This document shows positions 3-20,083 of a stretch of DNA of 64,000 nt, one piece after another. The position numbers and the translations under genes are program-made. Source of the stretch: Chamaelirium japonicum (Eukaryota > Streptophyta > Magnoliopsida > Liliales > Melanthiaceae); assembly GCA_947650365.1 (NCBI GenBank), contig OX393555.1:16046251-16110250 (forward strand), read 5' to 3'. Numbering within the stretch: the first letter of the stretch is position 1; every line of letters starts with the position of its first letter. Below the pieces are notes generated by a model. It did not search any database and was not told where the DNA came from. It saw nothing but the letters and a program-made list of their open reading frames with translations.

Positions 3-3000
3 GATGTCTGGTCCCGGCTCGGGGCACACCCCCGACAACCGCATGCCTCCAAGCATCACTCGAAGACGGACTCGGCACAAGTTCATCGCCCGAAGCGCGA
101 CGGCGAACATCATCGTCAACCGAGTGATAGTCATCACACTCGGATGACGCCAGCTAGTCGGCAGCCGGCCCATACCACTGACCGGAGGAGCGTACACGAA
201 CGCATTCGGGTACATGCGTCGGAGCGACTCGGTGAGCGAGAGGAGATCCAGCGAGACCGACCGGGGGTCCGAGCTCCCGACCGGTTGGAGGAAGTCGCCA
301 TCCGAGGAGCCGCACGATCGCCGCTTGTCGAGAAGCTACTCCGGGAGCCATTCCCTCGAGGATGGAATCCTCCACGCCTTCCCAAGTTTGACGGATCGAA
401 AGACCCGGTGGAGCATGTACTGGCTTTCCGGGATGCTCTGGTCCCGCATGAGGATGATCATATCCTCTGCCGGACCTTCGCCAACAGCTTGTCGGGAACC
501 CCCCTCGAATGGTTCCACAAGCTTAGGCCCTCATCCATCTCCTCCTTCGCGGAGCTGAGCATGCGGTTCATCGACCAGTACCGATGTAATCGCCGGGAGC
601 TGAAGACTCTGGAGTCACTCTTCGGGATGAGTATGACCCAGAAGAAGACGCTCCGACAGTTCTACCATAGGTTCAGGTCCGAGTACCTGAGCTTAGCGGA
701 CGCAGACGGGCATGATCGCATGATGATCGCAGCCTTCAAGAATGCCATACAGCCTACCCAGCTCGTCAACGCGTCGCTCATCAAGCGAACCCCGAAGACG
801 ATCGACGAGCTGTCACGACGCGTTGAGAAGTACATCAAAATTGAAGACGCGGACCGCAAGAGGAAGGCGGTGGAAACCAGGGCCCCGTACCAAGGTTACG
901 CCAAACCAACCGCCGTGAAGAACGTCAACAAGCAACAGGGGGAGGCGACGCGGCACGAGGCGAAGCGGCAGAGGCAAGACAGGCCCGCGAGGCCACAGTG
1001 GAACAGGGAGTTCACAGTACTGAACGCCCCCATAGATCAGATCCTGGAAGCCATCAAAGGTGAACCGTACTTCAAGTGGGCGCAACCGCTTGAGCCCGGG
1101 GAGAGGGGAGCCAGAGATGCATCAAGGTACTGCGAGTACCATCAAGGCCAAGGTCACACCACCTTGCAGTGCCGGGCGCTCAAACATCATATTGAGGATC
1201 TCATTGAGGCTGGCCATATTGGCTGCTTCATTGACCTCCCTCAACGTAAGGAGACTAAGGCTGTAGGGGAAGTCCAGCGAGAAGCGACGGCACAGCACTT
1301 ACCGGGTCCTCCACCAGAAAGACGCCAGCTCCGAGAGGTAGACGCCGTCTACGGGTACCCTGGCCCTGTCCCGTCGTCAAATACTGTCGACCGACAGGTG
1401 CGGCGTATTGAACAAGCAAGGCAAGTCCATCATGTGGTGCTCGACCCTGTCATCCGTCCCGAGCCAAGAGTGGAAGCGGCAGTACAGTTTTCGGCGGCTG
1501 ATCTGGTCGGAATAGAGAGGCCTCACAACCATCCCCTGGTCATACGGCTGCAGATAGCCAATTGCCTAGTGAAGAGAATTCTGGTCGACGCCGGACGTTC
1601 AGTAGATGTACTCTTCCTCAGCGCCTTCGACGCCATGCAGCTAGATCGCGGACAGATGACCGAGTCGTCATCGACGATAACGGGCTTCACGGGGGAGGCT
1701 GCAAGGGTGGTTGGTGAGATCACCCTCCCGATCACAACAGGGCATCTCACTAACCTTACTCGGTTCATTGTGATTGAAGCTCACTCGGCGTACAACATCA
1801 TCCTCGGAAGGCCGTGGCTCTACCACTTGGATGCGGTCCCCTCGTCGGCCCACCAGGTAGTGAAGTTTTGGACCGACGAGGGCGTGATGAGTATTCGAGG
1901 AGACCAGTCCTCGGCAGCCAAGTGCGAGCTCAGTGCCATCCATCTGAAGGCGATATGCCAGATTGAGGGAGGAGCACCAGGTGGGGGCGGCACTGAGTTG
2001 GACATCCTCAACCTCTGGACTACGAAGAGGAGTCAAGAGGCTCCAACGCGCCAGTGCCTCGCTCGATCGAGTGAAGGAGCGCGGGGAGGCCAAGCACCTG
2101 AGAAGACCGACCTGTCAGTTGAACTTAAAGAACTGACAGTGTCGGGAGACCTGCTGAAGACCGACCTGTCAGCCGAACGTAAAGAGCTGACAGTGTCGGG
2201 AGACCTGCTGAAGACCGACCTGTCAGCCGAACGTAAAGAGCTGACAGTGTCGGGGGACCTGCTGAAGACCGACCTGTCAGCTGAATGTAAAGAGCTGACA
2301 GTGTCTGAGGACTTGATGAAGACCGACATGTCAGCTGAACGTAAAGAGCTGACAGTGTCAGAGGACCTACAGAAGATCGACCATTCAGTTGAATGTAAAG
2401 AACTGAATGCGTCGAGAAGCTTGAAGAAGGCCGATCAGTTAGCTGAACTTAAAGAGCTAACTGGTCCGAACGACCCGATGAAGACTAACCTACCAGCTGA
2501 AGGTGAAGAGCTGAGTAGGATGACGCACCCTCAGAAGACCGACCGACCGGTTGAATCTAAAGAACCGGACGAGTTGGAGAGCCCGAACGCGGAGTGGGAG
2601 GAGTCGCCTGCCGTCGAGCCAATTCTGCCCGTGGACTTAGGAGAAGTGGGCCATCCGAGGATAACTTTTCTCGGGTCGCAGCTGCCGAAGCATCATGCCG
2701 AAGCCATGACGACATTTCTCAAGGCAAACCTGGACGTGTTCGCATGGTCAGTTGAGGACATGCCAGGCATCCACCCCGAGGTAGCCTGTCATCACCTCAA
2801 CATTCGAGAAGGAGCTACGCCTGTACGCCAGAAGCCCCGGTCGCTAGCACCGGAAAAAGCAGCAGCTGTCAACATGGAGGTAGAGAAGCTGCTACGAGCG
2901 GGCATCATCAGAGAGGCTCGGTACCCGAAGTGGATCGCTAACGTGGTCGCCGTCCCCAAGAAGTCAGGAGCCATTCGGGTCTGCATCGACTTCACAAATC

Positions 3001-3569
3001 TCAACCAGGCATGCCCGAAGAACAGCTACCCGCTACCACGCATCGATACCCTGGTGGATTCCACGGCGGGACACGAGAGGCTCTCGTTCATGGACGGCTA
3101 CTCGGGCTATCACCAAATCCCCATGAATCCGGAAGACCAGGAGCACACGACCTTCGTCACGGGTCGAGGGCTCTTCTGCTACAAGATGATGCCTTTCGGG
3201 CTGAAGAACGCGGGAGCAACGTACCAGAGGCTGGTGAACAAGATGTTCGTTGACCAAATTGGGAGGAACGTGGAGGTCTACGTTGACGACTTGCTTGTGA
3301 AGAGTCAGGCTGAGGATATGCATATGCAAGACCTGAAGGAAACCTTCGCAACCTTGCGGAGGTACAGTATGAAGTTGAACCCGGCCAAGTGCGCCTTCGG
3401 CGTGACGTCGGGAAAATTTCTGGGATACTTGGTCACCCGGCGGGGAATCGAAGCCAACCCGGAGCAGATCCGTGCTTTGGAGGAGATGCCGTCGCCCAAG
3501 TCACGAAAGGAAGTCCAGAAGCTTACCGGACGGATCAACGCCCTCAATCGCTTCATTTCCAAGTCCTAA
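3..3569 (+). pseudogene. Element A gag-protease-reverse transcriptase, open to a premature TAA
   Basis: The frame is open from base 3 (the start is beyond the edge; by comparison with B about 180 codons are missing) to a TAA at 3567-3569, where B reads TCA. The gag core lies at about 340-870. A zinc knuckle of CX2HX4HX4C form (second Cys replaced by His) starts at 1131. The aspartic protease motif V-D-A-G is at 1584-1595; the residue after it is Arg where B has Ser. Nine 18-residue repeats (2103-2588) join protease to RT. RT shows the MPFGLKNAGATYQR block near 3190 and YVDD at 3279-3290. The product would be a virus-like-particle polyprotein acting in the cytoplasm. The TAA removes RNase H and integrase, so the element cannot be autonomous as read. 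Confidence 0.93.
2103..2588 (+). repeat. Nine 54-bp in-frame repeats, each encoding 18 residues and containing a hairpin
   Basis: Nine units of exactly 54 bp start with Lys (AAG, one AAG variant context) and read roughly K-T-D-L-S-x-E-x-K-E-L-T-V-S-G-D-L-L. Each unit contains an inverted repeat around a loop of consensus GAANNTAAAG. Unit 1 pairs CTGTCAGTT with AACTGACAG, unit 6 CATTCAGTT with AACTGAATG, unit 7 CAGTTAGCT with AGCTAACTG, and unit 9 CCGGTT with AACCGG. The arms differ between units but stay complementary. The repeats lie between protease and RT. B has eight homologous units. No domain is recognised in the encoded peptide, which is acidic and lysine-rich and probably a flexible linker. 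Confidence 0.93.
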
Positions 3570-5140
3570 GACCGGTGTCGGCCCCTGTTCGAGAGGCTGA
3601 GTAAGCTCGCACCTTTCGACTGGGACCAACGCTGTGAAGAGGCGTTTCAAGAGCTGAAGACGTATCTTGGCCGACCCCCTATCTTGACAGCCCTCCGGCC
3701 AGGTGCAACGCTGGGGGTGTATCTTTCGGTATCTGAGGCAGCAATCAGCGCTGTACTGATATGCGAATGTGAAGGAGTAGAGAGGCCTGTCTACTACGTC
3801 AGTCGCATCATGATGTCAGCTGAGACGAGGTACGCGAGGATCGAACAAGTAGCTCCAGCTCTAGTGTACGTGTCAAGGAGACTTCGCCCGTACTTCGTCG
3901 CTCATCCCATCGAGGTCATCACCGAGCACCCCCTGAAGGAAGTACTAGATAACTCTACTCGGGCAGGTCGGCTGAGCAAGTGGGCGGCAGAGCTACAAGA
4001 GTTTGGCCCTCGGTACATACCTCGGAAAGCAATCAAGGGTCAAGCACTTGCAGACTTCCTCAGCGATTTCCCGGCGGAAGACACTGCACCGGTGCCAGAG
4101 ACGTTAGAAGACCTGTCGGTAGCTGTCAATCGACCCATGGGAGTCGGTGCGGCAGCAGGACAAGAGGACGAAGAAAAAGGCTGGAGGTTGTTCGTGGATG
4201 GCTCGTCATGCGCAGCTGGGAGTGGTGTGGGGGTAGTCACAGTAACCCCCGACCACACGAAGCTCGAAAAATCAGTGCGGCTACTTTTCCCGACGACGAA
4301 CAACGAAGCGGAGTACGAGGCGATGCTGACAGGACTGGAGATGGCAACAGCGCTGGGGGTGACCAGCCTGCAGGTCTACGGCGACTCCCAACTGGTAATC
4401 AATCAGATTACCGATAGGTATGAAGCCCGCGACGCAAGGATGCAAGCCTACCTGAAGCTTGCCCGGGAGTTGATCGTCAAGTTCGAAGATATAAGCTTTC
4501 ATCAGTTCCCCAGGGCGGAAAACAAGCAGGCGGATGCCCTTGCTAATCTAGCATCGGTACTCGGAGAAGACAAAGAGAAAAGGGTTTTCATCGAGGTGCA
4601 AGCTGAACCCCGAACTATCGGCCCCGCAGAAGATAGTTGCCTTACGAGGAGAACACAAGTCATTGAGGCGGCCCATACTATTGCGGTCGGAGCTAATTGG
4701 GTAGGCAACATGAAGAAGTACCTACTTGATGGGATACTACCGGAGGACGTCGATGAAGCCCGAAGAACCAAGGTGCACGCTCCAATATACACCCTCATAG
4801 ACGACGAGCTGTACAAGCGTTCGTTTGGCGGACCGTACCTCAAGTGCCTCACGAAGGAACAAGCGGCAGAAATCCTGAAGGAGGTACACGAAGGGGGGTG
4901 CGGGAACCACTCCGGAGGAAGATCCCTGGCGCGGAAGATAAAGCTGCAAGGCTACTATTGGCCCACCATGGAAGCAGATGCGGGGGGATATGCGAAAAGG
5001 TGCTTGCAATGTCAAAAGCATGCTCCCTCCATACACCAACCGGCAGAAGAGCTACACCCAGTATCCAGCCCTTGGCCCTTCCAACAGTGGGGGTTGGATA
5101 TCTTGGGCCCCTTCCCAACGTCTCCCAACCGGAGGAAGTT
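3570..5140 (+). pseudogene. Element A RNase H, archaeal-type RNase H and integrase zinc domain
   Basis: This continues the same frame after the TAA at 3567. The Ty3-type RNase H follows RT at about 3690-3960 (PGATLGVYLSVSE block, then P-V-Y-Y-V-S-R). A connecting region leads to a second RNase H of archaeal type at about 4180-4560, with the FVDGSS aspartate at 4197, the NNEAEYEA glutamate near 4310, the YGDSQ aspartate near 4385 and the ADALANLAS aspartate near 4530. The integrase HHCC zinc domain lies at about 4870-5030 (C-L-Q-C pair near 5005). The first catalytic Asp sits in GLDILGP near 5095. A 1-base deletion relative to B near 5137-5145 breaks the frame just after it. Confidence 0.92.
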
Positions 5141-5941
5141 TCCCTCGTCGCCACCGACTACTTCACCAAGTGGGTGGAGGCAATTCCACTACTGAAGATT
5201 GGTGAAGTTCAAGTAGGAAAGTTCCTATGGAGCAGCATCATCTGTCGATTCGGACTGCCGCGGGCTTTCGTTGCAGACAACGGGCGACAGTTCGACGCAG
5301 AGTCGATCAAGAAGTTCTGCGCCAGTAACAACATCAAGTTATTCTTCTCTACACCGCGGTACCCCCAGAGCAACGGGTAGGCAGAGTCGACGAATCGTGC
5401 CATTCTCGACATATTGAAGAAGAAGCTGGAGCAGAAGAAGGGATTGTGGGAAGAAGCTCTACCCGGAGTTCTATGGGCATATCGGACGACACCGAAGCGA
5501 CCAATGGGAGAGTCCCCGTTCAGTCTTACCTACGGCTCTGAAGCAGTCCTGCCAACGGAAACCCTGGTCCCGACACAGAGAACGGTCGTAGCTGCCGACC
5601 CAAAGCTGAATGACGAGCTCCTGCTTGATGGCCTGGACTTGCTGGAAGAGAAGAGGGAGAGAGCGAGGGCGCGCCTAGCTAACTACCATCAGGCTATCAA
5701 GAGGGCATATGATCGCAAGGTCAGAAGGCGGGTATTCAAACAAGGAGACCTGGTCATGCGGAAGGTCTTCGATAATACCAAGGAGCTGGGAAGTGGCAAG
5801 CTGGGAGCTACCTGGGAAGGACCATACATCATCGATGGTATGGGGAAAAATGGAGCCTACCGCCTGAAGACTCAAGACGGCGACGCGCTAGCAAGGCCAT
5901 GGAATGCAACTAATCTGCGCAAGTTCTACCAGGGCAGTTAA
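5141..5941 (+). pseudogene. Element A integrase core and C-terminus (frameshifted, internal TAG)
   Basis: After the 1-base deletion the integrase core continues in the next frame: FTKWVEAIPL near 5165, the second catalytic Asp in ADNGRQF near 5275, then TAG at 5378-5380 where B has CAG (Gln), then the catalytic Glu at about 5384. The remainder to 5941 is the integrase C-terminal region (W-A-Y-R-T-T block, then G-D-L-V-M-R-K-V). It ends at TAA 5939-5941. No chromodomain is visible, as expected for Tat elements. The 3' end converges on the antisense gene that ends at 6788. Confidence 0.92.
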
Positions 5942-6052
5942 AGGGGCAAGACGCGTGTAATCGTTTTGTAACTCCGAATCTATTCAATGAAAATGCACTT
6001 GCTTAATGTTTTTGTTCACGTGTGAGAATAATGATTAACCGAGGCAACCTAA

Positions 6053-6470
6053 ACCAAGTGGTACATAACACTCCGAGCGAGTTCTATCACTTGGCCAACC
6101 GGTCCCTGCGAAGGGCGAGACCGACCGGTGAACAACTGGAAAGATCGGTCGACAGACCCTGTCAGGGTACGACCGATCAACCAGCCTAACCAAGTGGTAC
6201 ATAACACTCCGAGCGAGTTCTATCACTTGGTCGACCGGTCGACAGGTCCCTGCGAAGGGCGAGACCGGCCGGTGAACAACTGGAAAGATCGGTCGACAGA
6301 CCTTGTCAGGGTACGACCGGTCAACCAGCCTAAACCAAGTGGTACATAACACTCCGAGCGAGTTCTACCACTTGGCCGATCGGTCAACAGGTCCCTGCAA
6401 AGGGCGAGACCGGCCGGTGAACACTTGAAAAAATCGGTTGGCAAAACCCGCGGGGGAACGACCGAGCGAC
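6053..6470 (+). repeat. Convergent-spacer tandem repeat, ~150-bp unit, about 2.8 copies, rich in palindromes
   Basis: Units begin ACCAAGTGGTACATAACAC. Each contains an inverted repeat ACCAAGTGGTA...TACCACTTGG around a ~22-nt loop, GGTCGACCGGTCGAC-type palindromes, and a tight hairpin ACCCTGTCAGGGT. The array lies between the end of gag-pol (5941) and the end of the antisense gene (6788), that is, where two transcripts would meet. B has the same array with about four copies (11572-12152). It may hold termination or polyadenylation signals for convergent transcripts (inference). Confidence 0.85.
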
Positions 6471-6645
6471 GTGTAGTTACGCATGTCGTTGGCGTGCGGT
6501 TACGCATGTCGTCGACGTGTAATTAGAACATGAGAACCGGATTTTTAATGACACATCGTCGACGTGTAGTTACGCGCGTCGACGACGTGTAGTCAAGACA
6601 CAAAATCCAAGTTTTAATAGCGAGACATCGACATGAACTTGAGAT
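6471..6645 (+). repeat. Short interspersed motif GTCGACGTGTAGTTACGC
   Basis: A motif of about 18-26 bp built on CGTCGACGTGTAGTTACGC is repeated several times with changes. The same motif occurs in the introns of both antisense genes (around 7345-7365, 10500-10580 and 20015-20065), in B at 11360-11570, and, in degraded form (ACACGTCGA), in the antisense leaders. It therefore brackets the antisense gene in both elements. Its function is unknown. Confidence 0.7.
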
Positions 6646-6723
6646 GTAAAGTTGATGAAAAAGACAATGATCATGGCATTCAGATGAAATATCAAGAGAT
6701 CCCAACACAAACAAGAGTTTTGT

Positions 6724-6729
6724 TTTATT
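6724..6729 (-). terminator. Polyadenylation signal AATAAA of element A antisense gene
   Basis: On the minus strand AATAAA lies about 60 nt downstream of the antisense stop codon at 6788. The copy in B keeps the same signal at the same distance (11223-11228). This supports a Pol II transcript reading opposite to gag-pol. Confidence 0.6.
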
Positions 6730-6787
6730 ACATCACGAAAAAAAGTAAGGCAGCGAGTAAGATCGGTCAAGCGTCGCCCCCAGCTTT

Positions 6788-7279: not shown

Positions 7280-7364
7280 CTGACAAAGAAGGAAACAACA
7301 TGTACCACAGAGTTAATGGGAGAAGTTACTACTACGTGAAGTCAAAACATGTCGTCGGCGTGTA

Positions 7365-7369: not shown

Positions 7370-7617
7370 TGTGGGGGGTTCTAATTCGAACCGGGTGGTT
7401 CGGGTGGCGAGCACAATCCAACAAGCCAAATACAAAGAAGAGACGGTGGTTACGTGGAAAAACCCCTTCGCAACGTCGAAGGGGAAAAAACCACGGGTGG
7501 GGCGAGAATGCACTAAGACTAATCTTTCAGTTACAATCTCTCACCTTAACCCCAATTACATACCCTGAGGACCGGTCTCCCAAACTACCGACCTCTGTAA
7601 TTTCACTCAGTCTACCG

Positions 7618-7800
7618 ACCGCTGCGGACAGCGTCTGTCTGCAGGTCGCTTACAAACAGTGTCTGGCTGCTGACCGACCGACCTCCACAGACAGACTCTG
7701 GGTGCAGACCGACCGACCTCCGCAGACAGCCTCTGGGTGCAGACCGATCGGTCTCCGCTGACAGCCTCTGGGTGCAGACCGACCGATCTCCGCAGCTCCG
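7618..7800 (-). repeat. LTR minisatellite near R/U5, ~34-bp unit
   Basis: Four to five copies of a unit built on CTGTCTGCGGAGGTCGGTC / GGTCTGCACCCAGAGG (minus sense). Matching arrays are at 19040-19220 and, in A, at 22700-22880 (+). They lie just downstream of the LTR TATA box, so they would be in the transcribed leader. Confidence 0.8.
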
Positions 7801-8080
7801 CAAATTCCGGGACGAAACGAGCAGCGTCTCCTCCAGAATTCTTCCTCCTCCTTCGCTGAAGGGGTAGGTCCCCTTTTATAGTGGCGGGGTGACGGTTACA
7901 CTCCGCGAAAATCGGGCGAGTGACGTGTCCCTGCAATGAGCTCAACCACCGCGGTGACGTGGCGCGCGGTTGATACCTGGTCACGTTGGCCCGGAAATGC
8001 GGAGCGTTGTCAGCACTACGGGTCGTGTCTGACTGCTACTTCACTCCTCATTTCGTTACACATCCCGTCGAGGAGGGGGG

Positions 8081-8600
8081 GTGCTTCCTTGGTGACCAGC
8101 CGACCGACCCCTTCATGGGGGGGGGGGGGGTGTGCTGCCTCCCCCTTGTAACAACCGGCCGACCCCTTCATGGGGGGGGGGGGGTGTGCTGCCTCCCCCT
8201 TGTAACAACCGGCCGACCCCTTCATGGGGGGGGGGGGGGGGTGTGCTGCCTCCCCCTTGTAACAACCGGCCGACCCCCCCCCCCCTTCTGGGTACATGCC
8301 GACCCAGGGGGGGGGAGTGTGCCCCCTTGGTGACCTGCCGACCCCCCCCTCTCTCTGGCTACATGCCGACCCAGGGGGGGTGAGCTCCCCTTGGTGACCG
8401 GCCGACCCCCCCCCCCCCCCTCTCTCTGGCTACATGCCGACCCAGGGGGGGGGTGAGCTCCCCTTGGTGACCGGCCGACCCCCCCTCTCTCTGGCTACAT
8501 GCCGACCCAGGGGGGGTGAGCTCCCTTTGGTGACCGGCCGACCCCCCCCTCTCTCTGGCTACATGCCGACCCAAAGGGGGGGGTGTGCTTTCCTTGGTGA
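8081..8600 (-). repeat. U3 minisatellite with poly-G/poly-C runs
   Basis: Two related unit types occur: about 52 bp with CCCCTTCATGGGGG and TGTAACAACCGGCCGACC, and about 65 bp with CTCTCTGGCTACATGCCGACC and TTGGTGACCGGCCGACC. Each is separated by runs of 7-16 G or C. Copy number differs between the two LTRs of B and from A (22010-22400). The G-runs have strong G-quadruplex potential. They lie upstream of the TATA box, in U3. Confidence 0.88.
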
Positions 8601-8637
8601 CCGGCCGGCCACCTCCAAAAAAGCAGCGGTACACACA

Positions 8638-8649
8638 ATACCCCCTCCT
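8638..8649 (-). promoter_or_regulatory. Element B polypurine tract
   Basis: On the minus strand the tract reads AGGAGGGGGTAT directly before the 3' LTR start TGTGTGTACC. The same tract precedes A's 3' LTR at 21965-21976. It would prime plus-strand DNA synthesis. Confidence 0.85.
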
Positions 8650-8836
8650 AACCGGACGGTCCTCGGTCCCGCCCGGTCAGGATGATTTGCCTCGATTTGT
8701 GTGCCCGCCTCAGTTCGGGGCTGTTGCAACTCAAAAAAGCTATCTAGAGTTTCTTCTGATTTTTCACCACATGGCGTCGCCGGGTGCCGCCGCCTTGCCT
8801 TTTCGAAATTCGAATCCCTCCATCTCCAACTTCGTC

Positions 8837-8844
8837 TATAAATA
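8837..8844 (+). promoter_or_regulatory. TATA box of element B antisense gene
   Basis: TATAAATA lies about 210 bp upstream of the conserved ATG at 9058, on the strand opposite to gag-pol. A keeps it at the same place (21706-21713, minus). It is separate from the LTR TATA boxes, so the antisense gene appears to have its own internal promoter. Confidence 0.65.
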
Positions 8845-8937
8845 GGAGTCAGATGGTTCATTTCTCTCCTCTGCTTCAGATCTTTCCTCTGCGGCTGAAG
8901 GTTCATTTGGGAGGAGTTTCGCCTGAATACACATCGA

Positions 8938-9057
8938 AGTCCTGCGTGTCGGCTCGTTTGGATACACGTCGTGGACCTGCGCGTCAGCTCGTTTGTATAC
9001 ACGTCGAGTGCATGCGCGTCAGCTCCTTGGATACACGTCGAAGACCTGCGGCGAAGA
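8938..9057 (+). repeat. Leader minisatellite upstream of antisense ATG, ~35-bp unit
   Basis: Three to four degenerate copies of a unit containing GTCGGCTCGTTTGGATACAC and GTCGAGG lie between the TATA box and the start codon. The reading frame upstream of ATG 9058 happens to stay open across them, giving a longer apparent ORF. The conserved protein, however, starts at M-S/T-F-T-W-F. Confidence 0.75.
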
Positions 9058-10481
9058 TGTCTTTCACCTGGTTCACAGTGCCGAACAAGTTCCCACTGAT
9101 GGAGGATGTCCGGGCAGCATACGGCATTCCAGATGAAATTTTGCTTTCTTTCGCTACCGATCCTCTGGACTCGTCAGACGACGACCACACCGTCGTCACG
9201 CTCGGTCAGCTTCGCTGCGGCATGCGGCTTCCCCTGGCGAGTTTCTCTGGTCGTCTACTGGAGCGCATGAGCGTGTCTCCTGGCCAGCTAGCTGGCAACG
9301 GCTGGAGGATCCTCCGCTGTATGGAAGAGATAGAGGTGCGGGCGGGGCAGCAGCTTTGCGTCGCGTACCTGCTGAAGAAGTATTTCCTCAAAGACTACAA
9401 GGTGACGCCTGACAGCATCTTCTCGTACTTCAGCCTGCAGGCGCGTGCAGGCAGTCGCCCTCTTATTGGGGGTTTAGCTGATTCAGTAAGGACTTGGAAA
9501 GAATGCCCCATTGTGGTCGGGGGACCTTGGAGGGGTGGCTTCAACGTTCCCAGTCGTCTCTCCCAACTCGCCGCGACCATTGAGGAGTACTACCCCTCCA
9601 GGCAGCTTCAGTGCCCCGGAGCTGTTGAAGAGGAGTTGGACCAACTCATCAAGGAGGTGACAAACAACGATGACGACTGGCGGTAGCTGTTTCCGAAGCT
9701 ACCGGTCGTCAGGTCCTACAGCTCCACTTCGAAGAAAGGCAAACAGCGTGCGGCGTCCAGTAGGGGAGAAGAACCCATTTCTTACTCTTCTGAGCTTCCT
9801 GACAGGTACGTCAGCTCCGTCAGACGCTTCAATCCCAACACCGCTACATCTAAACTCTGCGTGGTCTTCAGGCGGCGCGCGAAGTCGACTAAAGCTGCAG
9901 GCGAGAGCAGCCGACCGGCCGAGCGCAACGTAGCTGCGCCGACTGGGAAATCAAGGAGGCGAGTTTTGCTGACTGAGTCTTCCAGCGATGAAGAGGCTGG
10001 ACGCGCTCTTCTCGCTCGCTCCATGCGACGTACCGCTGCCGACGACCTTCGCTCCCTCCCTGACGACTGGGTAGAGGACGTGCCATCGACGGGTAAGCAG
10101 TATATGGAGGTAGAGGAGTCGGAGATGAGCTCCGGTTATAGTCCCTCTCCTTTCCTCGGGCGAGACGAGCGAGCCATACCGTCTGGCTCGGCTAGGTCGC
10201 GTAGGCGAGCTTCACCCCGCGGTCCCTCCGCTACACCTACCGTTGCACCAACTGCTGCCCCTGCCGCTAGAAAGCTTGATCGTGCTGTGGCGCGGGAGTT
10301 CCTGCCTTCACCTTGCTCCTCTGCATCTGGGGGCCCCGCCAGGCCATCCCCCCATTCTCCCCTCAGGGCCACTGAAGCTACATCCCATCGCCGTTCTCCC
10401 GGAGCTACTGAAGATTGCGGGGAGGAAGATGACTGTGTGGGTAGTCCTGGCTGGGAGCGTCAGCTCGACGAGTTTCATGAG
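9058..10481 (+). pseudogene. Element B antisense gene, exon 1: Transposase_28-like protein (internal TAG)
   Basis: I chose ATG 9058 because A's copy starts at the same codon and both lie downstream of TATA and leader repeats. The N-terminal ~200 residues (SFSGRLLERM, L-A-G-N-G-W-R-I-L, PIVVGGPWRGGF) resemble the plant family annotated in Pfam as Transposase_28 (putative gypsy type transposon); this is recognition by eye. A basic, Ser/Pro-rich linker follows. TAG at 9684-9686 replaces a Gln codon present in A. The exon ends in phase 0 at GAG|GTAAGT (10481/10482). It probably encodes a nuclear accessory protein of the retroelement; its function is not established. Confidence 0.78.
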
Positions 10482-10639
10482 GTAAGTCTAAGTCGTTAAC
10501 GAGTTGACTGCACGTCGACGACGCGCGTGACTGCACGCCGACGATATGCATAACTACACGCCAACGATATGTTTTGACTTCACGTAGTAGTAACTTCTCC
10601 CTTTAACTCTGTGGTACATGTTGCTTCCTTATTTGTCAG
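10482..10639 (+). other. Intron of element B antisense gene (158 bp)
   Basis: GTAAGT at the 5' end and TTATTTGTCAG at the 3' end; phase 0 on both sides, so the two open frames join. It contains copies of the CGTCGACGACGCG motif. A's intron, with B and one GTTAC removed, is also 158 bp. Confidence 0.8.
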
Positions 10640-11164
10640 GCGGGCTGTCGACTTGTTGAGGGAGGCATGCAAAGGATGACGCATCTTAAGGTCTCCCTTC
10701 GGGCTTCTCGGCAGGAGTCAAGAGGGCTACGCGCTCAGCTGGCGGAAGCTCGACGGGTTCACGCCGAAGAACTTGCTGCAGTCCAGGCTCAGCTCGAAGC
10801 CGCGCTGGAGAACGCTTCTGATGCCTTCGAGCTCTAAGAAGCGTTGGATTCTGCTAAGGTAGAAAATTACGAGGTGTGGGCAAAGTTCGAGGCGCAGGCG
10901 GCTACGATCAAGGAGCAGCGTACCGAGGCCCATGCCGTCCAAGCCGCTCATGAGGCCGAAATTGCCGCATTGAAGGCTTCCCTTGATCAGGCCAAAGCAG
11001 CGCACAAGGCCTCCTTTGACCAGACCGAAGCAGCGCACAAGGCTGCGCTGGACAGGCAGCAGGCTGAATACACAGCGGATTGCAAGTCGCTCCTTGCGGA
11101 GCAGGCGGAGGAATGGCGCAAGAAGGTTGCGAAGCTGCGCGGCAAGCTCCTGTCGGGATCGTAG
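10640..11164 (+). pseudogene. Element B antisense gene, exon 2: coiled coil (internal TAA)
   Basis: Reads in phase 0 from the acceptor. Residues are mainly A, E, K, Q, R and L in heptad-like order, matching A's exon 2. TAA at 10835-10837 replaces a Gln codon in A. It contains a small internal duplication (QAKAAHKASFDQTEAAHKA) absent from A. The ending K-L-R-G-K-L-L-S-G-S then stop matches A. Confidence 0.75.
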
Positions 11165-11222
11165 AAAGCTGAGGACGACGACTGACCGCTCTTGCTCGCT
11201 GCCTTACTTTGTTTCGTGATGT

Positions 11223-11228
11223 AATAAA
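11223..11228 (+). terminator. Polyadenylation signal AATAAA of element B antisense gene
   Basis: AATAAA lies 58 nt after the stop codon of exon 2, at the same place as in A. Confidence 0.6.
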
Positions 11229-11359
11229 CTACACTCCTGTTTGTGCTGGGATCTCTTAATATTTCATTTGCATTTCATGACTGTTGTCTTTTTCGTCAAC
11301 TTTGCATCTCAAGTTTGCGTCGGTGTCTCACTACTAAAACTCGGATTTTGTGTTTTGAC

Positions 11360-11571
11360 TACTCGTCGACGATGTGTGTAACTACACGTCGACGACATAC
11401 AGAACTACACGTCGACACGCGCAACTACACGTCGACAACTCGCAACTACACGTCGACAACGCGCAACTACACGTCGACGACGCGTAACCAAAATCCGGTC
11501 CTTATGTTTGGATTACACGTCGACGACATGCGTAACCGCACGCCGACGACATGTGTAGCTACACGTCGCTC
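11360..11571 (+). repeat. Array of ACTACACGTCGACGAC motif
   Basis: About eight to nine copies of AACTACACGTCGAC(A/G)AC(G/T)CGC, 19-24 bp apart. This is the same motif as 6471-6645 in A, and it is amplified further here. Confidence 0.85.
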
Positions 11572-12152
11572 GGTCGTTGCCCTGCGGGTTTTGCCAACCG
11601 ATTTTTCCAAGCGTTCACCGGCAGGTCTCGTCCTTCGCAGGGACCTGTCGATTGGTCGGCCAAGTGGTAGAACTCGTTCGGAGTGTTATGTACCACTTGG
11701 TTTAGACTGGTTAACCAGTCGTACCCTGACAGGGTCTGTCGACCGATCTTTCCAGTTGTTCACCGGCCGGTCTTGCCCTTCGCAGGGACCTGTCGACCGG
11801 TCGGCCAAGTGGTAGAACTCGCTCGGAGTGTTATGTACCACTTGGTTTAGACTGGTTAACCGGTCGTACCCTGACAGGGTCTGTCAACCGATCTTTCCAG
11901 TTGTTCACCGGCCGGTCTTGCCCTTCGCAGGGACTCGTCGACCGGTCGGCCAAGTGGTAGAACTCGCTCGGAGTGTTATGTACCACTTGGTTTAGACTGG
12001 TTAACCGGTCGTACCCTGACAGGGTCTGTCGACCGATCTTTCCAGTTGTTCACCGGCCGGTCTTGCCCTTCGCAGGGACCTGTCGACCGGTCGGCCAAGT
12101 GGTAGAACTCGCTCGGAGTGTTATGTACCACTTGGTTTGGGTTGCCTCGGTT
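11572..12152 (-). repeat. Convergent-spacer palindromic tandem repeat, about four ~150-bp units
   Basis: Homologous to 6053-6470, with about one more unit. Each unit has the CCAAGTGGTA/TACCACTTGG inverted repeat and ACCCTGACAGGGT hairpin. It is bounded by the gag-pol end (12248, minus) and the antisense gene end (11164, plus). An AATAAA on the minus strand at about 12197-12203 could serve gag-pol. Confidence 0.88.
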
Positions 12153-12247
12153 AACCATTATTCATTCACATGAACAAAAACGTTGAGCAAATGCATTTTT
12201 ATTGACTAGCTTCAGAGTTACAAAGCGGTTACATGCATCTTGCCCAT

Positions 12248-15200
12248 TTAACTACCCTGATAGAACTTGCGCAAGTTGGCTGCATTCCATGGTCTTGCCA
12301 GCGCGTCGCCGTCTTGAGTCTTCAGGCGGTAGGCTTCGTTTTTTCCCATACCATCGATGATGTATGGTCCTTCCCAAGTAGCTCCCAACTTGCCACTTCC
12401 CAGCTCCTTGGTATTGTCGAAGACTTTCCGCATAACTAGGTCCCCTTGTTTGAATACCCGCCTTCTGACTTTGCGATCATATGCCCTCTTGATGGCCTGA
12501 TGGTAGTTAGCAAGGCGCGCCCTCGCTCTCTCCCTCTTTTCTTCCAGCAAGTCCAGGCCGTCAAGCAGCAGTTCGTCATTCAGCTTCGGGTCGGCAGCTA
12601 CGACCGTTCTCTGTGTCGGGACCAGGGTTTCCGTTGGCAGGACTGCTTCAGAGCCGTAGGTAAGGCTGAACGGGGACTCTCCCGTTGGTCGCTTCGGTGT
12701 CGTCCGATATGCCCATAGAACTCCGGGTAGAGCGTCTTCCCACAATCCTTTCTTCTGCTCCAGCTTCTTCTTCAGTATGTCGAGAATGGCACGATTCGTC
12801 GACTCTGCCTGCCCGTTGCTCTGGGGGTACCGCGGTGTAGAGAAGAATAATTTGATGTTGTTACTGGCGCAGAACTTCTTGATTGACTCCGCATCGAACT
12901 GTCGCCCGTTGTCTGCAATGAAAGCCCGCGGCAGTCCAAATCGGCAGATGATGATGCTCCATAGGAACTTTCCTACTTGAACTTCCCCGATCTTCAGCAA
13001 CGGGATTGCCTCCACCCACTTGGTGAAGTAGTCGGTGGCGACGAGGAGGAACTTCCTCCGGTTGGGCGACGTCGGGAAGGGGCCCAAGATATCCAACCCC
13101 CACTGTTGGAAGGGCCAAGGGCTGGATACTGGGTGCAGCTCTTCTGCGGGTTGATGAATGGAGGGAGCGTGCTTTTGACATTGCAAGCATCTTTTCGCAT
13201 ATCCCCCCGCATCCGCTTCCATGGTAGGCCAGTAGTAGCCCTGCAGCTTTATCTTCCGCGCCAGGGCTCTTCCTCCGGAATGGTTCCCGCACCCCCCTTC
13301 ATGTACCTCTTTCATGATTTCTACCGCTTGTTCCTTCGTGAGGCACTTGAGGTACGGTCCGCCAAACGAACGCTTGTACAGCTCGTCGTCGATGAGGGTG
13401 TATCTTGGAGCGTGCGCCTTGGTTCTTCGGGCCTCATCGACGTCCTCCGATAGTATCCCATCAAGTAGGTACTTCTTCATATTGCCTATCCAATCCGCTC
13501 CGACCGCAATAGTATGGGCCGCCTCGATGGCTTGTGTCCTCCTCGTCATGCAACTATCTTCTGCGAGGCCGACTATTCGTGGGTCGGCTTGCACCTCGAT
13601 GAAGACCCGCTTCTCTTTGTCTTCTCCGAGTACCGATGCTAGATTAGCAAGGGCATCCGCCTGCTTGTTTTCCGCTCTGGGGAACTGGTGGAAGCTTATG
13701 CTTTCGAACTTGGCGATCAACTCCCGGGCAAGCTTCAGGTAGGCTTGCATCCTTGCATCGCGGGCTTCATACCTACCGGTAATCTGATTGATTACCAGTT
13801 GGGAGTCGCCGTAGACCTGCAGGCTGGTCACCCCCAGCGCTGTCGCCATCTCCAGTCCTGTCAGCATCGCCTCGTACTCCGCTTCGTTATTCGTCGTCGG
13901 AAAATATAGCCGCACTGATTTTTCGAGCTTCGTGTGGTCGGGGGTTACTAGGACTACCCCCACACCACTCCCGACTGCGCACGACGAGCCATCCACAAAC
14001 AATCTCCAGCCCTGTTCTTCGTCTTCCTGTCCTGCTGCCGCACCGATTCCCACGGGTCGACCGGCAGCTACCGACAGGTCTTCTAACGTCTCTGGTACCG
14101 GTGCAGTGTCTTCCACCGGGAAATCGCTGAGGAAGTCCGCAAGTGCTTGGCCCTTGACTGCTTTCCGAGGCACGTACCGAGGACCAAACTCTTGCAGCTC
14201 TGCAGCCCACTTGCTCAGCCGACCTGCCCGAGTAGAGTTATCCAGTACTTCCTTCAGGGGGTGCTCGGTGATGACCTCGATGGGGTGAGCGACGAAGTAC
14301 GGGCGAAGCCTCCTTGACACGTACACTAATGCCAGGGCTACTTGTTCGATCCGCGCGTACCGAGTTTCAGCTGACGTCATGATGCGGCTGACGTAGTAGA
14401 CAGGCTTCTCTACTCCTTCACTCTCGCATATCAGTACAGCGCTGATTGCTGCCTCCGATACCGAAAGATACACCCCCAGCGTTGCACCTGGCCGGGGGGC
14501 TGTCAATATAGGGGGTCGGCCAAGATACGTCTTCAGCTCTTGAAACGCCTCTTCACAGCGTTGGTCCCAGTCGAAAGGTGCGAGCTTACTCAGCCTCTCG
14601 AACAGGGGCCGACACCGGTCTGAGGACTTGGAAATGAAGCGATTGAGGGCGTTGATCCGTTCGGTAAGCTTCTGGACTTCCTTTCGTGACTTGGGCAACG
14701 ACATCTCCTCCAAAGCACGGATCTGCTCTGGGTTGGCTTCGATTCCCCGTCGGGTGACCAAGTATCCCAGAAATTTTCCCGACGTCACGCCGAAGGCGCA
14801 CTTGGCCGGGTTCAACTTCATACTGTACCTACGCAAGGTTGCGAAGGTTTCCTCCAGGTCTTGCATGTGCGTATCCTCAGCCTGACTTTTCACAAGCAAG
14901 TCGTCGACGTAGACCTCCACGTTCCTTCCGATTTGGTCGACGAATATCTTGTTCACCAACCTCTGGTACGTCGCTCCCGCGTTCTTCAGCCCGAAAGGCA
15001 TCATCTTGTAGCAGAATAGCCCTCGACCCGTGACAAAGGTCGTGTGCTCCTGGTCTTCCGGATTCATGGGGATCTGGTGATAGCCCGAGTAGCCGTCCAT
15101 GAACGAGAGCCTCTCGTGTCCTGCCGTGGAATCCACCAGGGTATCGATGCGTGGTAGCGGGTAGCTGTCCTTCGGGCACGCCTGGTTGAGATTCGTGAAG

Positions 15201-15382
15201 TCGATACAGACCCGAATGGCTCCTGACTTCTTGGGGACGGCAACCACGTTAGCGATCCACTTCGGGTACCGAGCCTCTCTGATGATGCCCGCTTGTATCA
15301 GCTTCTCTACCTCCATGTTGACTGCTGCTGCTTTTTCCGGTGCTAGCGACCGGGGCTTCTGACGTACAGGTGCAGCTCCTTC
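12248..15382 (-). pseudogene. Element B RT, both RNase H domains and integrase (long open segment)
   Basis: This segment is open from just after a TGA at 15383-15385 to the natural stop at 12248-12250. It contains RT (YVDD), Ty3 RNase H, connecting region, archaeal-type RNase H with its D-E-D-D residues, the integrase HHCC zinc domain, and the DDE core with all three acidic residues in one frame (GLDILG, ADNGRQ, then the Glu of N-G-Q-A-E-S). It is the best preserved pol in the A/B family here. A has a stop and a frameshift in the same stretch. Loss is limited to the upstream stops that cut it off from gag. Confidence 0.93.
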
Positions 15383-15493
15383 TCAAATGTTGAGATGATG
15401 ACAGGCTACTTCGGGGTGAATGCCTGGCATATCCTCAACTGACCAGGCGAACACGTCCAGGTTTGCCTTGAGAAATGTCGTCATAGCTTCGGC

Positions 15494-17242
15494 CTAATGC
15501 TTTGGCAGCTGCGACCCGAGAAAAGTTATCTTCGGGCGTCCCGCTTCTCCTAAGTCCACGGGCAGAATTGGCTCGACGGCAGGCGACTCCTCCCACTCCG
15601 CATTCGGGCTCTCCAACTCGTCCGGTTCTTTAGATTCAACCGGTCGGTCGGTCTTCTGAGGGTGCGTCATCCTGCTCAGCTCTTTACTTTCAGCTGGTAG
15701 GTCAATCTCCATCGGGTCGCTCGGACCAGTTAGCTCTTTAAGTTCAGCTAATTGACCGGTCCTCTTCAAGCTCCTTGACGCATTCAGTTCTTTACGTTCA
15801 ACTGAATGGTCGGTCTTCTGTAGGTCCCCTGACACTGTCAGCTCTTTACGTTCAGCTGACATGCCGGTCTTCAGCAAGTCCCCCGACACTGTCAGCTCTT
15901 TACGTTCAGCTGACAGGCCGGTCTTCAGCAGGTCCCCCGACACTGTCAGCTTTTTACGTTCAGCTGACAGGTCGGTCTTCAGCAGGTCCCCCGACACTGT
16001 CAGTTCTTTAAGTTCAACCGACAGGTCGGTCTTCTCAGATGCTCGGCCTCCTCGCGCTCCTGCGCTTGATAGGGTGTGGTGCTGGAGCGTTGGTGCTTCT
16101 TGACTCTGCTTAGCAGTCCAGAGGTTGAGGATGCCCAACTCAGTGCCGCCTTCACCTGGCTCTCCTCCTTCGATTTGGCATGTCGTCTTCAGATGGATGG
16201 CACTGAGCTCGCACTTGGCTGCCGAGGACTGGTCACCTCGAATGCTCATCACACCCTTGTCGGTCCAAAACTTCACTACCTGGTGGGTCGACGAGGGGAC
16301 CGCATCCAAGTGGTGGAGCCACGGTCTTCCGAGGATGATGTTGTACGCCGAGTGAGCTTCGATTACGATGAACCGGGTAAGATTAGTGAGATGCCCTGTT
16401 GTGATCGGGAGGGTGATCTCACCAACCACCCTTGCGGCCTCCCCCGTGAATCCCGTTATCGTCGACGACGACTCGATCATCTGTCCGCGATCTAGCTGCA
16501 TGGCATCGAAGGCGCTGAGGAAGAGCACATCAACTGAACTTCCGGCGTCGACCAGAATTCTCTTCACTAGGCAATTGGCTATCTGCAGCCGTATGACCAG
16601 GGGATGGTTGTGAGGCCTCTCTATTTCGACCAAATCGGCCGCCGAAAACTGTACTGCAGCTTCCACTCTTGGCTCGGGACGGATGACGGGGTCGAGTACC
16701 ACATGGTGGACTTGCCTTGTTTGTTCAATACGTCGCACCTGTCGGTCGACGGCATTCGCTGATGGTACCGGGCCATGGTACCCGTAGACTGCATCTACCT
16801 CTCGAAGCTGACGCCTTTCGGGCGGAGGACCCGGTAAGCGCTGCGTCGTTGCTCCTCGCTGGACTTCCCCTACAGCCTTGGTCTCCTTACGTTGAGGGAG
16901 GTCAACGAAGCAGCCAATATGGCCGGCCTCAATGAGATCCTCAATATGATGTTTGAGCGCCCGATACTGCAGGGTAGTGTGGCCTTGGCCCTGGTGGTAC
17001 TCGCAGTACCTTGATGCATCTCTGGCTCCCCTCTCTCCAGGTTCAAGCGGTTGCGCCCACTTGAAGTATGGTTCGCCCTTGATAGCTTCCAGAATCTGGT
17101 CAATGGGGGCGTTCAGTACCGTGAACTCCCTATTCCATTGCGGCCTCGCTGGCCTGTCTTGCCTTTGCCGCTTCGCCTCGTGCCGTGTCGCATCCCCCTG
17201 CTGCTTGTTGACGTTCTTCACAGCAGCAGGCTTGGCGTAGCC
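15494..17242 (-). pseudogene. Element B gag C-terminus, zinc knuckle, protease and repeat linker
   Basis: Same frame as the flanking segments, bounded by TAG 17243-17245 (Gln in A) and TAG 15494-15496. It holds the CX2HX4HX4C zinc knuckle (C-E-Y-H...C replaced by Y at the last ligand: ...T-T-L-Q-Y), the protease motif V-D-A-G-S-S and the 18-residue repeats. The 108 bp from 15493 to 15386 is open and leads to another TGA at 15383-15385, which is CGA in A. Confidence 0.9.
15602..16033 (-). repeat. Eight 54-bp hairpin repeats in element B gag-pol
   Basis: Homologous to A 2103-2588 but with eight units instead of nine. Arms pair as CTGTCAGCT/AGCTGACAG, CATTCAGTT/AACTGAATG and CCGGTT/AACCGG around the same loop. 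In the sense RNA the first unit has a G-U pair where A has an A-U pair, so pairing is kept. One unit (arms CAATTAGCT/AGCTAACTG) has a single mismatch. Confidence 0.9.
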
Positions 17243-17479
17243 CTAGTGCGGGATCCTGGTTTCCACCGCCTTCCTCTTGCGGTCTGCGTCCTCGATCTTG
17301 ATGTACTTCTCAACGCGCCGCGACAGCTCGTCGATCGTCTCCGGAGTTCGCTTGATGAGTGACGCGTTGACGAGCTGGGCAGGCTGAATGGCGTTCTTGA
17401 AGGCCGCGATCACCATGCGATCCTGCCCGTCTGCGTTAGCTAAGCTCAGGTACTCGGACCTGAACCTATGGTAGAATTG

Positions 17480-18670
17480 TCAGAGCGTCTCCTTCTGGGT
17501 CATACTCATCCCGAAGAGTGACTCCAGAGTCTTCAGCTCCCGGCGATTACATCGGTACTGGTCGATGAACCGCGTGCTCAGCTCCGAGAAGGAGGAGATG
17601 GATGAGGGCCTAAGCTTGTGGAACCATTCGAGGGGGGTTCCCGACAAGCTATTGGCGAAGGTCCGGCAGAGGATATGATCATCCTCGTGCGGGACCAGAG
17701 CATCCCGGAAAGCCAGTACATGCTCCACCGGGTCTTTCGATCCATCAAACTTGGGGAGGCGTGGCGGATTCCATCCTCGAGGGAATGGCTCCCGGAGTAG
17801 CCTCTCGACAAGCGGCGACCGTGCGGCTCCTCGGATGGCGACTTCCTCCAACCGGTCGGGAGCTCGGACCCCCGGTCGGTCTCGCTGGATCTCCTCTCGC
17901 TCCCCGAGTCGCTCCGACGCATGCACCCGAATGCGCTCGTGTACGCTCCTCCGATCAGTAGTATGAGCCGGCTGCCGACTAGCTGGCGTCATCCGAGTGT
18001 GGTGACTATCACTCGGTTGACGATGATGTTCTTCGTCTCGCTTCGGGCGATGCACTTGTACCGAGTCCGTCTTGGAGTGATGCTTGGAGGCATGCGGCTG
18101 TCGCACGTGCGCCCCGAGCCGGGACCAGACATCCGAGCGTGCCGACGCCGCCCGAGCGTGTTTGTTTTTCTCCGTAGGCTCCGGGCTACTCGAGTCTCGC
18201 CCATCGGGATTTGCACTCTGGACCTCCACCGAGTGATTACCCCTGACCTCCACCTGAGGCACTGGTTGCGGCTGCATTTGCACTGGTGGGGCAGCTTGAG
18301 TGGGGAGACTCTGTCCCGCTTGGGCCAACATGCCCTGGTTGAGCAGACCACCAGTCGGAGCGGCCCGCACGAAGTCACGCAACTCCTCGTAGTTGCGCTG
18401 CATCGTTTGGAGCTGGGTGGTGAGAGCTTGCTGGGTCATCATCATTGTGGCTAGAAAAGCTTCCGATAGACCCCCTGTCAGAGGTGCCAGGGTTGCTACC
18501 GGAGCTTGACTGGACTCCCCGACCCCCAGTACAGGATTCGTCAACGGGGCTACGCGCTCCGTGCCCGTTGGCTGTTGAACAAGACGCCCGACGTCATTTG
18601 CATCTCCGAGTGGTGCGGCTTCGGACAGGAGCTGCGACGTCGAGCGAGTACGATACGGTCCACCGGCCAT
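17480..18670 (-). pseudogene. Element B gag N-terminal part, ending at premature TGA
   Basis: The ATG at 18670 (M-A-G-G-P) lies ~125 bp after the PBS. The first ~200 residues are a Gln/Pro/basic-rich region and the gag core follows (PKFDGSKDPVEHV...LEWFHKL). TGA at 17480-17482 is CGA (Arg) in A, a C-to-T change at a CpG. This segment also shows what is missing from A beyond the left edge. Confidence 0.92.
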
Positions 18671-18776
18671 CGTTCTTCAACCGTGTGGTCGTGGACTGCT
18701 GGTTGCAGGTAGCTTCGGACTGGTTGACACCCACGGGTCTACAGTCAAAAGCTCTAGTAGGAAGTCTCGAAGACTA

Positions 18777-18794
18777 TCCCACAGACGGCGCCAA
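18777..18794 (-). promoter_or_regulatory. Element B primer-binding site
   Basis: On the minus strand TTGGCGCCGTCTGTGGGA starts three bases after the 5' LTR end. This is the usual place for tRNA priming. The tRNA was not identified here. Confidence 0.8.
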
Positions 18795-18797
18795 GAT

Positions 18798-20010
18798 TGT
18801 GGGGGGTTCTAATTCGAACCGGGTGGTTCGGGTGGCGAGCACAATCCAACAAGCCAAATACAAAGAAGAGACGGTGGTTACGTGGAAAAACCCCTTCGCA
18901 ACGTCGAAGGGGAAAAAACCACGGGTGGGGCGAGAATGCACTAAGACTAATCTTTCTGTTACAATCTCTCACCTTAACCCCAATTACATACCCTGAGGAC
19001 CGGTCTCCCAAACTACCGACCTTTGTAATTTCACTCAGTCTACCGACCGCTACGGACAGCGTCTGTCTATAGGTCGCTTACAAACAGTGTCTGGCTGCTG
19101 ACCGACCGACCTCCGCAGACAGACTCTGGGTGCAGACCGACCGACCTCCACAGACAGCCTCTGGGTGCAGACCGACCGATCTCCGCTGACAGCCTCTGGG
19201 TGCAGACCGACCGATCTCCGCAGCTCCGCAAATTCCGGGACGAAACGAGCATCATCTCCTCCAGAATTCTTCCTCCTCCTTCACTGAAGGGGTAGGTCCC
19301 CTTTTATAGTGGCGGGGTGACGGTTACACTCCACGAAAATCGGGCGAGTGACGTGTCCCTGCAATGAGCTAAACCACCGTGGTGACGTGGCGCGCGGTTG
19401 ACACCTGGTCACGTTGGCCCGGAAATGCGGAGCGTTGTCAGCACTACGGGCCGTGTCTGACTGCTACTTCACTCCTCATTTCGTTACACATCCCGTCGAG
19501 GAGGGGGGGGGGTGCTTCCTTGGTGACCAGCCGACCGACCCCTTCATGGGGGGGGGGGGGGGTGTGCTGCCTCCCCCTTGTAACAACCGGCCGACCCCTT
19601 CATGGGGGGGGGGGGGTGTGCTGCCTCCCCCTTGTAACAACCGGCCGACCCCCCCCCCCTTCTGGGTACATGCCGACCCAGGGGGGGGGAGTGTGCCCCC
19701 TTGGTGACCTGCCGACCCCCCCCCTCTCTCTGGCTACATGCCGACCCAGGGGGGGGGGGGGTGAGCTCCCCTTGGTGACCGGCCGACCCCCCCTCTCTCT
19801 GGCTACATGCCGACCCAGGGGGGGGTGAGCTCCCCTTGGTGACCGGCCGACCCCCCCTCTCTCTGGCTACATGCCGACCCAGGGGGGGGTGAGCTCCCTT
19901 TGGTGACCGGCCGACCCCCCCTCTCTCTGGCTACATGCCGACCCAAAGGGGGGGGGTGTGCTTCCCTTGGTGACCGGCCGGCCACCTCCAAAAAAGCAGC
20001 GGTACACACA
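18798..20010 (-). repeat. Element B 5' LTR (1213 bp)
   Basis: Direct repeat of 7370-8637. The TATA box TATAAAA reads on minus from 19308 to 19302 and would drive the gag-pol transcript. The U3 minisatellite is at about 19500-19990 and the 34-bp array at 19040-19220. It is flanked at 20011-20015 by GTTAC. Confidence 0.95.
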
Positions 20011-20015: not shown

Positions 20016-20083
20016 ACATATCGTCGGCGTGTAGTCACGCGCGTCGTCGACGTGCAGTCAACTCGTTAACGACTTAGACTTAC

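Follow-up and report, generated by a model that had tools for sequence, protein, structure and literature searches.

A tandem array of hairpin units within the gag-pol frame of a retrotransposon from Chamaelirium japonicum

Why should a retrotransposon carry, in the middle of its coding frame, a run of repeats that can each fold back on themselves, with arms that differ from one repeat to the next and in most cases still pair? The window analysed here, a stretch of 64,000 nucleotides from the Chamaelirium japonicum genome (contig OX393555.1), contains such an array, and the original prediction held that structure, in RNA or in DNA, is selected there in addition to the peptide. We ask how far the pairing exceeds what chance and coding would yield, how it behaves among other copies of the element, and which function or copying process may account for it.

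The array and its host element

At positions 2102-2587 of the window lie, as had been predicted, nine in-frame units of 54 bp (18 codons each); they follow one another head to tail without insertions or deletions. Their host is a Ty3/gypsy element of Retand type (Tat), referred to herein as element A, and within its gag-pol frame the array lies between a protease-like region and the reverse transcriptase (RT). A second, closely related element is nested within the first and carries a homologous array:

3..3569, plus strand: open frame of element A, comprising gag (Pfam PF03732), protease-like region, array and RT (PF00078)
2102..2587, plus strand: array of nine in-frame 54-bp hairpin units in element A
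3570..5195, plus strand: continuation of element A, with RNase H, RVT_3 (a second RNase H) and an integrase zinc-binding domain
7370..20010, minus strand: element B, an antisense insertion in element A, with LTRs at about 7370-8637 and 18798-20010
15603..16034, minus strand: eight-unit array of element B, homologous to that of element A

The left end of the element A frame lies beyond the edge of the window, and the frame is terminated by an in-frame stop. The protease-like region, which has no Pfam match, was recognised by eye, as was a knuckle-like C-x2-H-x4-H-x4-C stretch in gag. Elements A and B are 92% alike across 6.5 kb, and in both of them Pfam places RVT_3 between the RT_RNaseH and integrase domains; an extra RNase H in this place is described for the angiosperm Tat lineages Ogre and Retand (PMC6317226). 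The region between pol and the 3' LTR of element A (about 5941-7369 plus 20010-22003, the boundaries being alignment ends) measures roughly 3.4 kb, which falls inside the range of 2,933-6,566 bp given in a survey of Retand elements (PMC11963269). The separation of gag-pro from RT by an intron or other non-coding stretch that typifies Ogre is absent, as the frame of element A is open from gag through the array to RT and the frames of other copies exceed 2,100 aa. An antisense ORF in element B weakly matches Transposase_28 (E 0.00078, 20.1 bits, below the cut-off of 26.2), and Pfam returned no Transposase_28 match for the antisense ORF at 20069-22009. Domain order fits both Ogre and Retand, and the single frame and the antisense ORF favour Retand.

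Several other repeats and frames are present in the window. The LTRs of elements A and B contain a number of tandem arrays (7662-8607, 19090-19980 and 22000-22835), some of which include words such as GACCGACC or CGGTCGG that resemble the lower stem of the hairpins. Another Tat-like element, at 40579-46056, has gag-pro and RT frames about 290 bp apart, as in intron-bearing Ogre elements; the gap between these frames holds no tandem hairpins, just single short repeat pairs, and the gag-pro frame carries a 201-bp in-frame duplication (42607-43004). This element is flanked by direct repeats that are 96.6% alike and are likely LTRs (38432-40527 and 53191-55267), between which lies an antisense ORF (50117-51949, minus strand) that encodes a Plant Mobile Domain (PF10536, E 3e-16) and may be a gene captured from the host.

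A typical unit of the array consists of a lower stem, CCGAC/GTCGG, a 9-bp upper stem and the loop GAANNTAAAG, with one bulged base on the 3' side between the two stems. The predicted stem of 6-9 bp is thus present, and in most units it is longer than proposed, with 9 bp followed by a 1-nt bulge and a further 5 bp. Individual units, named U1 to U9, are as follows:

2107..2145, plus strand: U1 hairpin, 9-bp upper stem, 10-nt loop, 1-nt 3' bulge and 5-bp lower stem, 14 of 14 pairs; arms CTGTCAGTT/AACTGACAG
2161..2199, plus strand: U2 hairpin, 13 of 14 pairs, C/A mismatch at the loop
2215..2253, plus strand: U3 hairpin, 13 of 14 pairs, C/A mismatch at the loop; one base different from U2
2269..2307, plus strand: U4 hairpin, 13 of 14 pairs; arms CTGTCAGCT/AGCTGACAG
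2323..2361, plus strand: U5 hairpin, 12 of 14 pairs, the outermost position of the upper stem being an A.G mismatch
2377..2415, plus strand: U6 hairpin, 14 of 14 pairs; arms CATTCAGTT/AACTGAATG, lower stem TCGAC/GTCGA
2433..2466, plus strand: U7 hairpin, 11 of 14 pairs in the common register; arms CAGTTAGCT/AGCTAACTG
2490..2518, plus strand: U8 hairpin, 8 of 14 pairs in the common register; arm CTACCAGCT with a bulge, loop GAAGGTGAAG
2539..2577, plus strand: U9 hairpin, 13 of 14 pairs; arms CCGGTT/AACCGG, upper stem 8 of 9, G.T in the lower stem

The arm pairs listed for U1, U4, U6, U7, U8 and U9 are those originally given. The lower stem CCGAC/GTCGG is intact in U1-U3 and has one mismatch in each of U4 and U5. 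Two units pair better in registers that were picked after looking: U7 then forms 12 contiguous pairs without a bulge, one of them G-U, and U8, with the bulge shifted into the upper stem, forms 9 of 9. The first description of a constant loop between complementary arms needs correction in U8, whose loop is one base away from the motif around which every other unit is built, and in U2, U3 and U5, whose arms contain mismatches.

Pairing exceeds chance and coding constraint

In the common register, 111 of 126 cells are paired across the nine units, 109 by Watson-Crick pairs and two by G-U. Measured against controls that leave out the descent of units from one another, this number lies above every codon-preserving shuffle tried, in keeping with the original prediction: 20,000 resamples of codon usage averaged 73.2 paired cells and peaked at 96, and 20,000 synonymous permutations averaged 82.1 and peaked at 97. 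When arms were re-paired between units, 111 was reached in 18 of 200,000 permutations. The folding z-score of the array was -12.3 when 100 dinucleotide shuffles served as the reference, -9.0 with 200 synonymous permutations and -4.3 with 200 codon-usage resamples. When 180-nt segments were taken along the frame, those with the four lowest z-scores all fell within the array (-4.33 to -4.91), whereas 45 segments outside it averaged -0.47, one of them reaching -3.34; two segments within the array scored only -2.59 and -3.17.

Covariation was assessed on the eight distinct units, U3 being omitted. Pairing was found in 98 of 112 cells (87.5%), compared with 77.5 (sd 2.0) in shuffles that likewise leave out descent, none of 500 being as high, and with 19.6-37.5% of cells when the register was slid. 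The arms do covary within the array, as claimed: 8 of the 14 pairs have changed on both sides (1 of 500 shuffles), and the covariation score was 0.362 against 0.191 in shuffles (0 of 500 as high). We also simulated independent change of the two arms from an assumed perfect ancestor, which gave P values of 0.0017 for U6, 0.0025 for U9, 0.18 for U7 and 0.041 for U8 in its favourable register. The case is clearer for U6 and U9, while chance is not excluded for U7 and is excluded weakly for U8.

The loop was also compared between units by codon position. Its three third codon positions do not differ among the six ancient units (U1, U2 and U6-U9), although the second loop codon varies at its first two positions (CTT, CGT, TGT, GGT and TCT). 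Because three of five third positions in the linker are likewise invariant among these units, constancy of the loop is weak evidence and may reflect descent. More telling is the choice of codons: the loop lysine is encoded by AAA in all eight units that have one, whereas elsewhere in the frame AAG outnumbers AAA by 45 to 7 and GAG outnumbers GAA by 51 to 23. Common descent of the units weakens this signal too.

Could the peptide itself be the object of selection? The 18-aa repeat might serve as a linker or binding module, with the palindrome merely left over from the origin of the repeat, in the manner of the PARCELs of microbes; palindromic coding repeats are known (PMC2996958), and unit spacing is 54 bp or a multiple of it in the arrays listed from the genome, bar one spacing of 51, with three older copies having spacings of 53, 55 and 107. 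We nevertheless consider this explanation unlikely, since the encoded residues differ on both arms while pairing stays, and synonymous codon choice carries signal. In addition, the array peptide matched no Pfam family above the cut-off, and no DUF285 match appeared among Pfam results up to E 10. A predicted structure of the peptide was set aside as unusable, being a poor, inconsistent helix (pTM 0.31; mean pLDDT 37.8-75.4 over five models) built on a four-sequence alignment.

Copies in the genome, recent variants and a multi-copy derivative

We searched the window's own assembly (1.52 Gb) for other copies of the element. A DNA search with the array gave 46 matches, the best 40 of 772 candidates having been scored, and a search with the adjoining protein scored the best 150 of 15,658 candidates, whose frame lengths were tallied by eye. 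Among these 150 rows, 33 have open frames that differ in steps of 18 aa: 2124 aa in 22, 2142 in five, 2160 in three, 2106 in two (one with an internal stop) and 2178 in one. Five further rows, of 2111-2146 aa, fall outside this series, and the remainder are of other lengths. Three copies that were read have nine units and frames of 2160 aa, and one with ten units has a frame of 2178 aa; array length has thus been gained and lost in whole in-frame units, their number ranging from 8 to 11 in the copies listed and from 6 to 10 as inferred from frame lengths. Among the matches scored, the similarity searches returned only close copies and no families that are 60-80% alike.

An older subfamily was sampled as 20 stretches from 40 scored places, together with loci L026, L032, L037, L044 and L047. 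In this subfamily U6 commonly reads CAGTCAGTT/AACTGACTG where the window has CATTCAGTT/AACTGAATG. Pairs were then counted in U6-U9 over 55-57 copies per unit, with units assigned by closeness to a reference or common unit and those differing from the reference at more than 16 of 54 positions dropped. Pair 13-36 of U6 is T-A in 32 of 57 copies, G-C in 20 and otherwise in five, the last comprising intermediates changed on one side (T.C in two, G.T in two and G.G in one). Pair 12-38 of U8 is T-A in 50 of 55 copies and G-C in five, and its pair 14-36, tallied by eye in the list of haplotypes under the register chosen post hoc, is C-G in 30, T-A in 18 and unpaired in seven. One copy has pair 12-37 of U7 changed on both sides. 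Two-sided changes therefore occur between subfamilies as well as between units. Pairing is not universal: four pairs (U6 6-44, U8 13-37, U9 6-44 and U9 13-36) are unpaired in 24 to 53 copies, with mismatches fixed in many copies at U8 13-37 (A.C in 30 of 55), U9 13-36 (A.A in 53 of 56) and U6 6-44, and in the common register pair 14-35 of U8 is C.A in 37 of 55. The compensation seen in the lower stem of U6 is not general either: of 57 copies, 44 have C.A at this pair (6-44) and 13 have T-A.

Recent variants gave a different picture. Units in the variant and haplotype counts were again assigned by closeness to a reference or common unit; we left out those with a loop differing at more than two of eight positions, with fewer than four of the first five pairs, or departing from a common unit by more than six differences. 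Across three copy groups, 182 distinct one-sided variants at paired sites comprised, as raw counts, 74 that form G-U, 66 that form A-C and 42 others, and hence a preference for G-U over A-C among single-step variants was not found. An earlier, smaller count of singletons, also raw, gave 19 G-U against 15 A-C in stems and 8 against 24 at unpaired sites; the opposite skew at the latter may be a matter of base composition. Distinct unit haplotypes contained 381 changed cells, 356 one-sided and 25 two-sided, where about 8.6 two-sided would be expected by chance. Of these 25, 20 are still paired and five are not, and 18 belong to the single pair 18-31, which differs between unit types. Independent divergence of the arms, put forward at the outset as the finding that would count against selection, is thus largely what recent variants display, yet it does not decide the matter, as many copies are probably in decay and the tests consequently have little power. 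These tests lend the RNA model no support.

The strongest rival to selection on structure is repair of inverted repeats by template switching, in which a palindrome is duplicated in tandem and its arms are subsequently copied from one another during DNA replication or reverse transcription, such that covariation arises without selection. Template switching is reported to create hairpins and make compensatory changes (PMC8794818) and to homogenise the arms of inverted repeats (PMC8604942). It predicts Watson-Crick rather than G-U pairs, as observed (2 G-U in 98 paired cells among the ancient units), as well as the lack of an RNA-strand bias in the 74 to 66 count above, and expansion by whole units fits tandem duplication. 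Against it, stepwise change would be expected to leave intermediates altered on one side, such as those at pair 13-36 of U6, and two-sided changes are few in recent copies and concentrated in one pair. In 89 loci, read in the sense orientation, we also found 562 normal loops and none inverted, inversion of the loop being one possible footprint of the process, though arm repair could still occur without it. We regard template switching as a possible but uncertain origin of the pattern.

The rarity of G-U and the lack of strand bias would also suit a role at the level of DNA, with the palindromes serving as sites for a DNA-binding protein, for example an antisense-encoded TRP28 protein. Such proteins are predicted to bind DNA in the published survey (PMC11963269), and the antisense ORF of element B has the weak, below-cut-off Transposase_28 match noted above. 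A binding site should keep its arm sequence, yet it is the arms that differ from unit to unit, most of the loop being constant, and we therefore judge this role very unlikely.

A further class of copies is a multi-copy derivative in which the array is joined to the repeats behind pol. Three of its loci (L033-L035), picked up by a pattern search, extend from gag across the array into sequence that follows pol in element A, and their frame stops right behind the array. A DNA search with one derivative locus, using a query that spanned the array and the new junction, scored the best 40 of 1118 candidates, which were 93-100% alike. The resulting set (L033-L035 and L052-L081) comprises 33 loci at 32 places, L034 and L052 being the same place. 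The gag side and the 3' side were matched in all 33 loci, and part of pol was also matched in 29. Five copies were read closely: four pass from position 2406 or 2461 of element A into the 145-bp 3' repeats (5963-6470 of element A) and then resume at about 3692 or 4038, such that RT is missing from its place, and the fifth has no pol within the 3 kb examined. A scripted count found 5-7 array units per locus in 30 derivative loci (six hits were spurious), and one derivative haplotype with an A.C mismatch is present 21 times. Retention of the array in this derivative fits a cis-acting role and, equally, plain inheritance.

The 145-bp tandem repeats, which lie behind pol in element A and occupy the place of RT in the derivative copies read, are themselves strongly structured (6048-6470, plus strand; 11565-12140, minus strand), with a z-score of -6.25 for 6048-6438. 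Over seven copies they have 46 consensus pairs, one of which has a two-sided change.

The derivative also bears on a role in translation, whereby stable hairpins between protease and RT would hold back the ribosome and thereby adjust folding, cleavage or how much Pol is made. The stems are strong, and the array sits at the boundary where Ogre elements are reported to have a partly spliced intron (PMC6317226). This role seems quite improbable to us, more so than selection on the peptide, given that the frame of element A crosses the array without a stop or shift, that unit number varies, and that in L033-L035 there is no downstream Pol left to tune.

A candidate recognition site and its relation to known systems

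The original claim of selection on structure beyond the peptide is borne out in part: covariation, codon-controlled pairing and recurrence in the family support it, while selection at the level of RNA is one possible cause and template-switch repair of the arms could yield covariation without any function. The roles first suggested, namely packaging, control of translation and resistance to host small RNAs, are each conjectural. The reading that we prefer, to which we give a probability of about one in three, is that the hairpins are a repeated recognition site in the genomic RNA, most likely read by Gag, for selection or packing of that RNA. The loop (GAANNUAAAG) would be the part recognised, most likely by the element's own Gag, and a hairpin read by its loop and shape could change its stem in sequence as long as the stem stays paired. 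Several copies of the hairpin may add binding strength, which would explain the tandem expansion, and the encoded peptide would be tolerated as a linker. The near-constant loop, the variable yet paired stems, the repetition and the multi-copy derivative that keeps the array are features to be expected of a repeated RNA site read through its loop; a packaging or assembly signal read by Gag was chosen by analogy with retroviral stem-loops. An extension of this proposal is tentative and rather doubtful: the length of the array would set a tunable dose of RNA binding sites, and the RT-lacking derivative would have retained its array in order to travel with the full-length element.

Searches for known partners or relatives of the hairpins were negative. 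No complement of the loop, as a kissing contact would require, was present inside elements A and B, and viral contigs yielded nothing for either the RT piece or the hairpin pattern. Rfam gave no match at the gathering score; three matches below that threshold (to sR14 and sR41, the best at 21.9 against 38 bits) were rejected as identifications on account of their scores.

If the hairpins are selected, then the coding DNA of plant retrotransposons, a place that annotation passes over, contains cis-acting RNA signals. The family also offers a natural series, with perfect stems, fixed mismatches, arrays of varied length and a derivative, by which selection on structure could be separated from template-switch repair.

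Among the papers listed by searches of an open-licence PMC library, none describes such an array in its title or the beginning of its abstract, and the closest parallels are each partial. Retroviral packaging stem-loops lie near the 5' end, whereas the array has nine copies in mid-frame. Gag is described as binding those stem-loops, a purine loop in MMTV among them (PMC8096270), and in our reading it would bind the hairpins too. Within the Retand lineage itself, about half of the surveyed elements carry tandem arrays, but the text of the survey places these between pol and the 3' LTR and does not use the word hairpin (PMC11963269), whereas the array described here is inside the polyprotein frame. 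The Ogre intron between gag-pro and RT occupies the same place in the polyprotein (PMC6317226), though here the frame runs on uninterrupted.

Outside retroelements, PARCELs are likewise tandem in-frame repeats whose DNA has dyad symmetry; they are described as 25-aa repeats of the DUF285/TIGR02167 type in unicellular microbes (PMC2996958), in contrast to an 18-aa unit with a near-constant loop and no DUF285 match in a plant retrotransposon. The palindromic coding elements of Rickettsia and Wolbachia are also in-frame palindromes within protein-coding genes, but are presented as isolated insertions scattered over different sites and genes (PMC2996958), unlike the tandem array of one element family. 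In Nematomorpha mitochondria, coding palindromes keep protein and stem together in the same DNA, as the array does; these are long perfect inverted repeats in mitochondrial genes, for which the abstract mentions no tandem units (PMC6649704). Palindromic coding repeats are thus already known from microbes and mitochondria, and the hairpin array of this plant retrotransposon is a variant of them.
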